Below are positions 2,332-51,713 of a DNA stretch of 64,000 nt, piece after piece. This DNA is from Psychrobacillus psychrodurans (lineage in GTDB: Bacteria > Bacillota > Bacilli > Bacillales_A > Planococcaceae): the NCBI GenBank assembly GCA_900114885.1, contig FOUN01000001.1, positions 496,001 to 560,000 of the forward strand. The letters run 5' to 3'. Under the pieces are notes generated by a model, which was given only the letters and a program-made list of their open reading frames with translations, ran no database searches and had not been told where the DNA came from. Each line of letters begins with the position of its first letter. The first letter of the stretch is position 1. The position numbers and the translations under genes are program-made.

Positions 2332-3576
2332 GTGGTTGTGGAGGGAAAAACAGAATTAGCAAAGGATAGTAAAATCTCAAAAAGGAAGAATATATTTAAT
2401 TATCTTGGACCGGCTTTAATCACTTCGGCCTTAGTATTAGGTCCAGGAAGTGTTACGCTATCTTCTAAAATTGGGGCAATATATGGCACACAATTAGTTT
2501 GGACCATTATTTTAGCTATTATTTTAATGATGGTATTTACAGAAATGAGTACTCGGATTGGTTTAGCAGCTGATCATAGTTTCATTCAAACAATTAAGAA
2601 AAAATGGGGATTGCTCGCTGGAGTATTAATAGGGGTTGGTGCATTTTTGGTTACCGCATCATTCCAAGCAGGTAATGCAATTGGTACAGGGATAGCTATA
2701 TCTACAGTTACAAATATGGATCCTACCATTTGGATTATCATCTTTACTCTCATATCTATTGGATTATTATTTGCAAAACAGTTTTATCAAATTCTTGAAA
2801 AAATGATGCTGGTCTTAGTAGTTATTATGTTACTGGCATTTTTGATCACTGTTATAGTAGTCCAACCATCATTAGTGGATATTTTCAAAGGATTCATACC
2901 GGTGTTACCTGAAGGAAGTATGGGGTTAATCATAGCACTATTTGCAACAAGCTTTTCCATTGTTGGAGCTGTATATCAATCTTATTTGGTAAAAGAAAAA
3001 GGTTGGAAAATTACAGATGCTGCAAGTGGTCGTAAGGAATCCTTTTTAGGAATTTTTCTTCTAGGTTTTATTTCTTTCCTAATAATGATTACAGCTGCAA
3101 CTATTTTGAAGCCTCAGGGACTTATCGTTAATGATGCAAGTGAAATGGGCTTAGCGTTAGAACCACTTTTTGGTAACTGGTCTACTATTGTCTTTATGCT
3201 CGGATTGTTTGGGGCATCCTTTTCTTCACTGATGGGGAATGCAACGATTGGTGGATCATTACTAGCGGATGGTCTTGGCATTGGCAGCAACTTGTCGAAT
3301 ATGAAGGTGAAACTACTAATTATTTTAGTGATGCTCTTCGGTTCTATCATTGGGATTGTATTTGGTTCTGCTCCATTGAATCTAATTGTTTTTGCACAAG
3401 CCATTACGATATTTGTTGTGCCTTTTATAGCAATTGCTATTTTAGTAGTAGCTAATGATAAAAATATTATGGGAGAACTTAAAAATAAATTATTAAGCAA
3501 TGTCCTAGGGATTATTGGACTAATAGTTTTAATCTATTTAGCTTTCAATAATATAAAAAATATCTTTTTTTCATAA
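2332..3576 (+). CDS. Nramp-family membrane transporter with atypical metal-site motifs
   Basis: A GTG start follows the ribosome site GAGGGGG. The 414-residue protein has about eleven hydrophobic segments and aligns by eye with Nramp/MntH carriers from the first helix (LGPALITSALVL). The diagnostic DPGN of helix 1 reads GPGS here. The helix-6 Met-Pro-His motif is absent: the region reads SIVGAVYQSYLV. In canonical Nramp proteins the Asp and Asn of DPGN and the Met of MPH bind Mn2+ or Fe2+, so this member probably carries something else. Four catabolic genes follow on the same strand with tight spacing, which fits uptake of an organic substrate or a chelate. Fold confident, substrate unknown. 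Confidence 0.75.
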   Translation: MVVEGKTELAKDSKISKRKNIFNYLGPALITSALVLGPGSVTLSSKIGAIYGTQLVWTIILAIILMMVFTEMSTRIGLAADHSFIQTIKKKWGLLAGVLIGVGAFLVTASFQAGNAIGTGIAISTVTNMDPTIWIIIFTLISIGLLFAKQFYQILEKMMLVLVVIMLLAFLITVIVVQPSLVDIFKGFIPVLPEGSMGLIIALFATSFSIVGAVYQSYLVKEKGWKITDAASGRKESFLGIFLLGFISFLIMITAATILKPQGLIVNDASEMGLALEPLFGNWSTIVFMLGLFGASFSSLMGNATIGGSLLADGLGIGSNLSNMKVKLLIILVMLFGSIIGIVFGSAPLNLIVFAQAITIFVVPFIAIAILVVANDKNIMGELKNKLLSNVLGIIGLIVLIYLAFNNIKNIFFS

Positions 3577-49396: not shown

Positions 49397-50332
49397 TTAA
49401 CGACTAGGAACTATGCTCTGCTTTTTCAATAATTCGGCAAATTGATTTGCAGGCAACGGTTTAGAATATAGATATCCTTGTACAGTGTTGCAATTATAGT
49501 CTTGTAATACCTGCAATTGCTCCATAGTTTCAACTCCTTCTGCGATTACATCCATTTTTAAATGGTTCGATAATTGAATGATCATATGTACAATAAAGTT
49601 TGCATCCTCTTGTTTTGAAAGACTTAAATCCTGTATAAACGAACGATCAATTTTTAATATATCGATTTTCCCATTAAAATGATGCAGATGGGATAAAGAA
49701 GAATAACCAGTTCCGAAATCGTCGAGTGCTATTTTGATTCCTATATTTTTTAACTCATCTAATAGAGAGAAAACCGTTTCTTCGTTTTTTAAAATAGAAG
49801 TTTCTGTAATTTCAATTTCTAAATATTGAGATTCAAGCTGAGTTTCTTTCAGGGTTTCCTGAATACTGATGACTAAATCTTTCTCCATAAATCGGGATGC
49901 CGATAAGTTGATAGAAACCGGAATAGCAGGTAACATAGCATCCTGCCACGCTTTGTTTTGTGCACAAGCGCTTTTTTTTACCCATTTGCCAATTGTATTA
50001 ATAAAACCCGTTTTTTCTGCTAATGGAATAAAATCCTTAGGAAGGATTAACCCTAATTTCGGGTGATTCCATCTGATCAGTGCCTCTGCTCCAATTATTA
50101 AACCCTTCTCTGTGTCTACTTTAGGTTGATAATACAATTCAAATTGGTTTTTATCTATTGCATTTATAAGGTCCATATCCAGTGCAGTCTGAGAGGATGC
50201 AAATGCTTGATTGCAATCAGTTCCTTCAATGCCATTAAGATCTGAAATGATATTTTTTTGATGATTATTTTTAGTATCTGCGCTATTCTTATGTAATGAA
50301 GAGTATATATCAAGATTTGCTGTAGGCTGCAT
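49397..50332 (-). CDS. Cytoplasmic EAL-domain cyclic-di-GMP phosphodiesterase
   Basis: The ATG follows AAGGAGAC on the minus strand. The 311-residue protein is a short N-terminal region of about 50 residues followed by a complete EAL domain. The catalytic motifs are intact: EALIRW (EALxR), ITETSIL, DDFGTGYSSL, KIDRSFI and EGVET, then QGYLYSKPLP. There is no GGDEF, PAS or membrane segment, so it should be a soluble phosphodiesterase that lowers c-di-GMP. It lies directly downstream of the PapR-like peptide gene on the same strand, separated by one hairpin. Confidence 0.92.
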   Translation of the reverse strand: MQPTANLDIYSSLHKNSADTKNNHQKNIISDLNGIEGTDCNQAFASSQTALDMDLINAIDKNQFELYYQPKVDTEKGLIIGAEALIRWNHPKLGLILPKDFIPLAEKTGFINTIGKWVKKSACAQNKAWQDAMLPAIPVSINLSASRFMEKDLVISIQETLKETQLESQYLEIEITETSILKNEETVFSLLDELKNIGIKIALDDFGTGYSSLSHLHHFNGKIDILKIDRSFIQDLSLSKQEDANFIVHMIIQLSNHLKMDVIAEGVETMEQLQVLQDYNCNTVQGYLYSKPLPANQFAELLKKQSIVPSR

Positions 50333-50368: not shown

Positions 50369-50415
50369 GTCCAATAAAACTATATATGGAAAATAATTTT
50401 ATTGGACTTTTATGG
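50369..50415. terminator. Hairpin between the peptide gene and the EAL gene
   Basis: AAGTCCAATAAAA and TTTTATTGGACTT form a perfect 13-bp stem with a 17-base loop. TTTTAT follows on the plus strand, while the minus strand, which carries the flanking genes, has only a mixed CTCTTATC. It may partially terminate the peptide transcript and allow some read-through into the EAL gene. Confidence 0.7.
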
Positions 50416-50417
50416 GA

Positions 50418-50543
50418 TTAATTAATGAAAGGTAAATCGAAGGTAGTAATAGGTTGCTTAATTGATTTAGCAACTTCACTGCTTCCGTTTGGATATAGAG
50501 CTACTGCTAATACAATTAATAAGATAATTGATAATTTTTTCAT
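50418..50543 (-). CDS. PapR-like secreted quorum-sensing peptide precursor
   Basis: The ATG at 50543 follows AAAGGACGG at good distance on the minus strand. The 41-residue product has Met-Lys-Lys and a hydrophobic core (LSIILLIVLAVALY) as a Sec signal. A short polar linker follows, and the C-terminus is ITTFDLPFIN. PapR of the Bacillus cereus group has the same design (about 48 residues, MKKL start) and ends in an ADLPFEF-type heptapeptide that activates PlcR. The gene lies head-to-head with a PlcR-like receptor, 37 bases apart. The Asp-Leu-Pro-Phe core is the key match. A longer minus-strand frame from 50690 has no ribosome site. Confidence 0.72.
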   Translation of the reverse strand: MKKLSIILLIVLAVALYPNGSSEVAKSIKQPITTFDLPFIN

Positions 50544-50580
50544 GTTTTTACCGTCCTTTTCTATAATATGGGGTGATATT

Positions 50581-51462
50581 TTGGAAATGAAATATTTAGG
50601 GTTAGAAATAAGTAAACTTAGAGCTGAAATGGGGATGTCCCAAAAAGAGCTCGCAAAAGATATTTGTACACAATCGACGATTAGTCGCATTGAAGCTGGG
50701 GAAGTATATCCAGCAATAGATACTTTATTGAAGATAGCTTTAAAACTCCAAGTCCCAGTAGAGTATTTTATTGAAATGCTGTTTCATAAAAATGTTCTGG
50801 AAAGTGAGGGATTAATAAGTGAGATTGAGTACCACTTAAAAGAACATAACTATAAAAGAGTAATTTCAATAATTAATAGTAATGAGATAGATAACGACAA
50901 CATCTGGTTAAACTTATACCTCGACTATATTTTAAGTACCGCAAAATACTATTTGAAAATGATTTCACCAGAAAAGTGTATAGAAAATTTAAAAGCTATT
51001 TTAAATTACTCAAATCCAACTACAATTCAATTTAGATTTTTGCAAATTAAAGTTAATAATACTATCGCCAATGTTTATGGTGAAAATGGTGAAAGTCAAA
51101 AATGTCTATATCATTTTAATAAAATATTAAAAGAGCATATTCACAAAAATTATAGTGATTATAAAATAAATAGAACTCTAATAACTGTTTTATTTAATAA
51201 ATGTAAAATCTTATATGACATTAAAGACTATGATGCTGCACTTGAAGCTGCAAACCAAGGAATTCAAAAATCTAAGGAAAGTTCTTTTATGTTCTTAAAT
51301 GGCCAGTTCTTGTATTACAAAGGCCAATGCTTAGAAAAGAAAGCTGCTCCTATAGCTGAAATCAAAGAAGTGTATCAACAAGCTCTGTTTTTCTTCGAAT
51401 TTCAAGAATTACCTTTTTATATTCAAGCGATTAATCAAAATAAAAAACAATTTTTACAGTAG
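50581..51462 (+). CDS. PlcR-like quorum-sensing regulator (RRNPP family, HTH plus TPR)
   Basis: The TTG at 50581 is preferred: GGGTGAT precedes it at the right distance, and the N-terminus MEMKYLGLEISKLR then aligns residue for residue with PlcR (MQAEKLGSEIKKIR). The 293-residue product (PlcR has 285) has an N-terminal HTH_3 with MSQKELAKDICTQSTISRIE and GEVYPAIDTLLKIALKLQVP, also shared with PlcR. A C-terminal part of about five TPR-like helical pairs ends in YYKGQCLEKKAAPIAEIKEV. In PlcR these TPRs bind the re-imported PapR peptide. The matching precursor is encoded divergently. Confidence 0.85.
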   Translation: MEMKYLGLEISKLRAEMGMSQKELAKDICTQSTISRIEAGEVYPAIDTLLKIALKLQVPVEYFIEMLFHKNVLESEGLISEIEYHLKEHNYKRVISIINSNEIDNDNIWLNLYLDYILSTAKYYLKMISPEKCIENLKAILNYSNPTTIQFRFLQIKVNNTIANVYGENGESQKCLYHFNKILKEHIHKNYSDYKINRTLITVLFNKCKILYDIKDYDAALEAANQGIQKSKESSFMFLNGQFLYYKGQCLEKKAAPIAEIKEVYQQALFFFEFQELPFYIQAINQNKKQFLQ

Positions 51463-51643
51463 ACTGGGAGTCTTGTTTCAATTTTCATAGAGTTTCTATT
51501 GATAGAATAAATCCAATTCTATAATTAAGAAATATACTCAATCATTACTTATTGTTTATTTTAATAAAGAGTACTTATTGCTTAATTATTTGATGTATTA
51601 AATACTTTTTGCATTTCTAATATACTAGATTTATTGAAAGAAA

Positions 51644-51660
51644 TATGTAGGATATGCATA
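51644..51660. promoter_or_regulatory. PlcR-box-like inverted repeat
   Basis: TATGTAGGATATGCATA has the half-sites TATGNA and TNCATA of the PlcR box, but five bases separate them instead of four. It sits downstream of the regulator gene, next to a terminator, so it may be chance. Confidence 0.25.
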
Positions 51661-51675
51661 AATGGATATTTTCTT

Positions 51676-51713
51676 AAGTGGTCGAAAACTATTTTCGACC
51701 GCTATTTTTTATA
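51676..51713 (+). terminator. Intrinsic terminator after the PlcR-like gene
   Basis: AGTGGTCGAAA and TTTCGACCGCT pair perfectly around CTAT and are followed by ATTTTTT. Between the stop codon and this hairpin (51463-51675) the DNA is AT-rich, without a gene. Confidence 0.9.

Follow-up and report, generated by a model that had tools for sequence, protein, structure and literature searches.

A probable PlcR/PapR-type quorum-sensing pair with a divergent peptide gene in Psychrobacillus

In the Bacillus cereus group the pheromone gene papR follows plcR on the same strand, PapR has a C-terminal core of DLPFEF type, the PlcR box has the consensus TATGNAN4TNCATA, and the PlcR regulon is large and comprises secreted and virulence factors. 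Structural work has placed PapR Glu6 against Lys89, Gln237 and Tyr275 of PlcR, and the PFEF core was described as the more conserved part of B. cereus PapR (PMC6568020). In the PlcRa-PapRa system of B. cereus, papRa was reported upstream of plcRa, PapRa comprises 93 aa with the active CSIPYEY in an internal position, and the PlcRa targets yielded no palindrome (PMC3519770). Literature joining Psychrobacillus with PlcR was not found, and the main texts of RRNPP_detector (PMC10075063) and of an mBio survey of 2022 (PMC9765709) make no mention of Lysinibacillus, Solibacillus, Sporosarcina or Planococcaceae; the supplements of both may list such pairs.

Here, a window of 64,000 nucleotides from the genome of the cold-tolerant soil bacterium Psychrobacillus psychrodurans was analysed together with 19 genomes of the genus and with more distant relatives. 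An earlier note on this DNA had described a 41-residue minus-strand frame with the C-terminus TTFDLPFIN, 37 bases from a divergent 293-residue regulator, and both the coordinates and the translation were confirmed (Table 1). In Psychrobacillus the two genes very probably form a peptide quorum-sensing pair of PlcR/PapR type, which would act at PlcR-box-like sites, and the proposal of such a pair outside the B. cereus group is supported by PlcR homology, a conserved coding frame, co-inheritance, covariation and a box-like site. The points against this reading are the loss of Glu6, a residue of importance in B. cereus PapR, the replacement of Lys89 by His, one regulator without a peptide gene and the lack of enrichment of the strict box. 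The 41-aa precursor would be exported and cut to a C-terminal peptide of about 5-8 residues containing DLPFIN, which would be re-imported via an oligopeptide permease (oligopeptide-binding proteins are encoded in the genome) and would occupy the TPR groove of the regulator; in this state the regulator would act at PlcR-box-like sites (TATCCATTTRTGCATA). Export, processing, import, binding and activation as well as the responding genes are what we infer by analogy with the described systems.

Table 1. Coordinates of genes and predicted elements at the locus (positions in the window)
Feature	Position	Strand	Remarks
Stand-alone EAL-domain gene, likely c-di-GMP phosphodiesterase	49397..50332	-	311 aa; Pfam EAL E=6.3e-70
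AT-rich hairpin directly after papR-like gene	50369..50407	-	long stem in 10/13 species
papR-like gene	50418..50543	-	41-aa precursor MKKLSIILLIVLAVALYPNGSSEVAKSIKQPITTFDLPFIN; basic N-terminus, hydrophobic signal-like stretch, C-terminus TTFDLPFIN
Shine-Dalgarno of papR-like gene, AAGGACGG	50551..50558	-	conserved as AAGGACGG/AAGGAAGG in 13 species
Shine-Dalgarno of regulator, GGGGTGAT	50570..50577	+	3 nt ahead of TTG codon; conserved in 14 species
plcR-like gene	50581..51462	+	293-aa HTH + TPR regulator, TTG start
Non-coding conserved block 3' of regulator	51566..51684		37/69 positions in 51600-51668 invariant, 13 species
Predicted -10 hexamer TATATT	51619..51624	-	28 nt from box; would be antisense to regulator
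PlcR-box-like palindrome TATGCATAAATGGATA	51653..51668		one mismatch to TATGNANNNNTNCATA; 15/16 positions invariant in 13 species
Intrinsic-terminator-like hairpin 3' of regulator	51677..51703	+	predicted

The regulator is a full-length homologue of PlcR, with homology extending over the N-terminal HTH and the C-terminal RNPP/TPR domain at about 30% identity to the B. cereus protein. Among PDB sequences PlcR (2qfc) was matched over the full length with E=2.4e-38, a profile comparison yielded 1.5e-43 for PlcR and no comparable full-length match to another RRNPP receptor, and the domain PF18768 RNPP_C was recognized with 144.9 bits. In a fold search with an AlphaFold model for which ten orthologues had been used (mean pLDDT 79, HTH part weaker), the predicted structure retrieved PlcR chains at ranks 1-5, and Rgg2 and ComR were listed further down. 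The Rgg-SHP and ComR-ComS systems share pheromone receptors of HTH and TPR-like build and differ by this far weaker structural match, by a sequence match limited to the HTH and by peptides unlike DLPF. The alignment with PlcR suggested in the earlier note is borne out by these matches, and the regulator sides with peptide-binding PlcR rather than with peptide-free HTH proteins. Of the groove residues checked, Asn159, Asn201 and Tyr275 of PlcR are invariant in the genus, Lys204 is kept in 13 of the 14 orthologues, position 237 is Gln in 11 of the 14 and Lys in three, and Lys89 is replaced by His throughout, as opposed to PlcR-PapR of the B. cereus group; only Lys89, Gln237 and Tyr275 are contacts taken from the cited structure (PMC6568020).

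In a tree of relatives from which PlcRa, PlcRb and PlcRc were absent, the Psychrobacillus proteins formed a clade with those of Lysinibacillus, Exiguobacterium and Macrococcus, and B. cereus PlcR fell into a separate clade with the Planococcus and OF4 proteins. This separation would suit a regulator of PlcRa type, or another RRNPP protein that is not PlcR-like proper, and PlcRa is likewise a PlcR paralogue with its peptide gene on the upstream side (PMC3519770). We judge this assignment to be improbable, since PlcR is the only solved receptor that was matched full-length, and since the motif here is C-terminal and accompanied by a PlcR-box-like site, whereas PapRa7 is internal and a palindrome was not detected at PlcRa targets (PMC3519770).

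Regulator orthologues of 76-100% identity were found in 14 of the 19 Psychrobacillus genomes. Failure of the short frame to be conserved together with the regulator had been named beforehand as a possible refutation; a divergent short frame was present at 13 of the 14 orthologous loci, and a peptide profile searched against the 19 genomes recovered exactly those 13 at E <= 6e-20, with the next match at 0.003 and with no frame in the genomes lacking the regulator. The one exception, locus L016 (G008:C1:2363212-2367087), carries an intact regulator as an orphan receptor, without peptide gene and without EAL gene. Sequence comparison indicates that the short frame is a coding gene under purifying selection: in 13 species pN/pS was 0.36 for the whole frame, 0.22 for the signal part and 0.19 for TTxDLP, and the two other forward frames across the gene have stops in every species. 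When upstream flanks were shuffled as a control for chance, a short frame ending in [DET]LP[FYHL]x0-5 arose in 4 of 5200 cases. A basic N-terminus and a hydrophobic stretch, taken together as a predicted signal, are the basis for calling the product a putative exported precursor.

Because the TTG codon is kept in all 14 orthologues and codon 3 of the L004 regulator is ATT instead of the nearby ATG, TTG is the likely start of the regulator. The spacer between the two genes, 37 bp in the window and 37-42 bp across 13 species, accommodates both Shine-Dalgarno sequences. Since so short a spacer is already filled with these, each promoter must reach into the other gene, and the geometry suggests that the promoters of the pair overlap each other's coding sequence in all 13 species, in agreement with what the earlier note had proposed. 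A search for sigma-70-like promoters gave none in the spacer and none above chance in the region.

At the C-terminus of the peptide DLP is invariant in 13 species and the last three residues vary (FIN, FTN, FVH, YVH, FIH, HIF, YIH, HTY, YTW, LIH and FIY), with F, Y, H or L after DLP and with Ile, Val or Thr at the position of PapR Glu6, a residue that is kept in most distant relatives. The locus resembles PlcR-PapR in its short, predicted-exported precursor with a C-terminal DLPF, in its PlcR-box-like palindrome and in a pherotype-like variation of the peptide tip; it differs from PlcR-PapR in the exchange of Glu6 for Ile, Val or Thr and in confining the variation to the last three residues while DLP stays fixed. 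If the likeness to PapR were due to chance, the frame could encode an unrelated small exported peptide, bacteriocin-like or membrane-associated, and the almost uniform signal-like part in most species, with export, processing and binding as predicted steps, would leave room for that. Such an origin is very improbable: DLP has remained invariant in 13 species even though the signal sequence was replaced in L009, L010 and L015, the variable tip covaries with receptor columns, and the peptides adjoining the regulators of distant relatives end in DLPFEH, DLPYEA and ELPFEN.

Covariation was assessed in a sample of 13 species. A tree simulation was used for this purpose because fast-changing columns came out on top when mutual information was ranked with no correction for the tree. 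Thr at the Glu6 position occurs in two independent lineages, L005 and L012/L013, and the combination of Lys237 with Phe212 in the receptor is limited to these three loci. Among 131 variable receptor columns two, 212 and 237, separate the Thr-tip species, compared with 0.15 expected in the simulation. The residue at the position of PapR Phe5 (Phe/Tyr/His/Leu) tracks receptor position 205 (Ile/Thr/Val/Ile) with one exception, L015; for this pattern 0.03-0.12 columns were expected across the 13 species. Position 237 can be placed at the groove because Gln237 contacts PapR Glu6 in the cited structure (PMC6568020), and positions 205 and 212 may line the peptide groove as well. The covariation of the short frame with TPR residues that had been proposed is therefore present, in columns 205 and 237 and also in 212. 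PlcR/PapR-type signalling would be extended to an environmental, cold-adapted genus in which pherotypes vary naturally, and because this variation arose more than once, receptor-peptide specificity (positions 205, 212 and 237 versus the last three residues) becomes testable outside B. cereus.

The position of the peptide gene, 5' of the regulator and divergent at 13 of 13 loci, distinguishes Psychrobacillus from B. cereus with its papR downstream on the same strand. Frames with a PapR core, ending in DLPFEH, DLPYEA, ELPFEN and similar, also adjoin distant regulators of about 25-37% identity on either side. The order is divergent in L018, in L029 and on plasmids of L. fusiformis, E. alkaliphilum, A. 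pseudofirmus OF4 and M. bovicus, and it is convergent in L017, L025, L027, L107, L108, L111, L113 and P. versutus. As relatives are divergent or convergent and papRa lies upstream of plcRa (PMC3519770), divergent order is not new, and the layout, which the earlier note had contrasted with that of plcR and papR, is shared by the plasmid relatives in Lysinibacillus, Exiguobacterium, Alkalihalophilus and Macrococcus. These head-to-head plasmid pairs, with peptides ending in TTLDLPYEA, FSDLPYEV, TFDLPFEH and SGLPYEI, differ from the Psychrobacillus locus in being plasmid-borne, in keeping Glu in the peptide and in having no adjacent EAL gene annotated, and in the OF4 pair a perfect PlcR box occupies the intergenic region. 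What the locus adds is an EAL partner, a predicted 3' operator and a species-level tuning of the peptide tip. A further relative of the regulator, with 25% identity, is encoded in an unannotated 3-kb record of Listeria phage LM 4-14-1 (OR848946.1:52-768).

The conserved block starts about 100 bp past the regulator stop and extends to about 220 bp. It was considered as a coding element and as a structured RNA, and both were rejected, as there is no conserved frame in the first case and neither a stable consensus fold nor an Rfam match in the second. The PlcR-box-like site in the block, a 3' position that differs from PlcR-PapR, adjoins the regulator in all 14 orthologues. In L016 it is inverted together with the block, which there faces a 217-aa gene (MNGTNIQPNL...) whose only match is a weak one to a PHROG without assigned function. 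Exact second copies of the box precede secreted-protein genes in three genomes: G005 and G013 have one ahead of the same gene, for a protein of 327 aa, and G009 has one ahead of a gene for a protein of 182 aa. These genes are absent from the other genomes in the set of 19, and judged from sequence they are likely regulon members in single species. Their families (L043, L059, L058) gave no Pfam match, searches with Pfam and PHROGs revealed no function for the box-associated secreted proteins or the L016 gene, and no such secreted-protein target was found in the genome of the window. Genome-wide, the strict PlcR box was not enriched: it occurs 8 times, and the reversed control gave 11 occurrences. 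A small regulon or a more degenerate box could account for this. A search for the genus version of the box with two mismatches exceeded the reversed control in every genome and is uninformative, because the excess was also seen in the five genomes without regulator.

The asymmetric box, TATCCA...TGCATA, points towards the gene at the three secreted-protein loci and in L016, and a spacing of 28 nt between box and hexamer is common to OF4 (TATAAG), L016 (TATATT) and L058 (TAACAT); at other loci a spacing of 33 nt fits instead. Box orientation and the 28-nt spacing place the predicted promoter of this locus on the minus strand, antisense to the regulator. Between the block and the regulator no conserved frame of a second peptide was detected, and no minus-strand terminator was found; the first gene that an antisense transcript could reach is therefore the papR-like gene about 1 kb further on. 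In convergent relatives the PlcR box is located at the peptide promoter, perfect at +1095 in L025 and +1099 in L108 and with one mismatch at +1070 in L107, compared with +1052 to +1137 for the boxes of Psychrobacillus.

A stand-alone EAL gene, another difference from PlcR-PapR, closely follows the peptide gene in the same orientation. It is present in the 13 peptide-bearing genomes and in no others, being missing from G008 and from the five genomes without regulator (Fisher p = 3.7e-5 for co-occurrence with the peptide, a value that ignores kinship). The catalytic motifs EALIRW, EITE and DDFGTGYSS are present in its sequence. The hairpin following the papR-like gene, in which G-C/A-U and G-U exchanges were seen by eye, is probably the terminator of that gene, with a weak U-run in the window; in the remaining three of the 13 species the interval up to the EAL gene contains an inverted repeat of another kind. 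Because the hairpin separates the two genes in 10 of the 13 species, their co-transcription is uncertain. Strict co-inheritance of the EAL gene suggests a connection of the peptide system with c-di-GMP, which would join the two kinds of signalling in a Gram-positive genus.

These features can be joined in a tentative and rather unlikely model, in which the active regulator drives the 3' promoter antisense through the whole of its own gene into the papR-like gene, so that signal production and receptor silencing would be combined on one transcript of a non-contiguous operon. This arrangement would have arisen by loss of an ancestral convergent papR of which the PlcR-box promoter was kept, and through the co-inherited EAL phosphodiesterase the signal would be coupled to c-di-GMP. 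From the gene order and the predicted 3' operator, overlapping transcription would be expected in a quorum-sensing switch. We assign a chance somewhat below even to an ordinary new PlcR/PapR pair, in which a different factor would bind the block or the block would serve as promoter of the rightward gene, and in which the EAL gene would have no part in the system. In favour of this, TATACT in the block would also make a fair -10 hexamer on the plus strand, a plus-strand terminator follows the block in the window, and the EAL gene may be insulated by the hairpin past the peptide gene; on the other hand, the block occupies the place of the peptide promoter in relatives with a convergent papR-like gene, TATCCA...TGCATA faces the gene at the three secreted-protein loci and in L016, and the EAL gene accompanies the peptide without exception.

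Several of the relatives' papR-like frames are unannotated or called hypothetical, and PapR-like systems are therefore probably under-counted. WP_012961261.1 of OF4 (L096:2180-2335) and WP_156108911.1 of P. versutus (L095:3382-3540), both annotated as hypothetical, resemble precursors of PapR type, and a perfect PlcR box is located close to each. PapR-like precursors with internal repeats are encoded by L111:2350-2583 (-), with TELPYEY three times in one frame, and by positions 2361-2549 (-) of the regulator-oriented locus L113, with GLPLEYSVKR twice in one frame; by sequence, these repeats suggest that another genus of the class has precursors with several pheromone copies. In eight genomes of one genus (L019, L020, L021, L023, L024, L028, L030 and L031) no papR-like frame was recognizable within 1.5 kb, and TATGCACTTACGCATA or a one-base variant is located about 55 bp after the PlcR-like gene, at about +913 from the regulator start.
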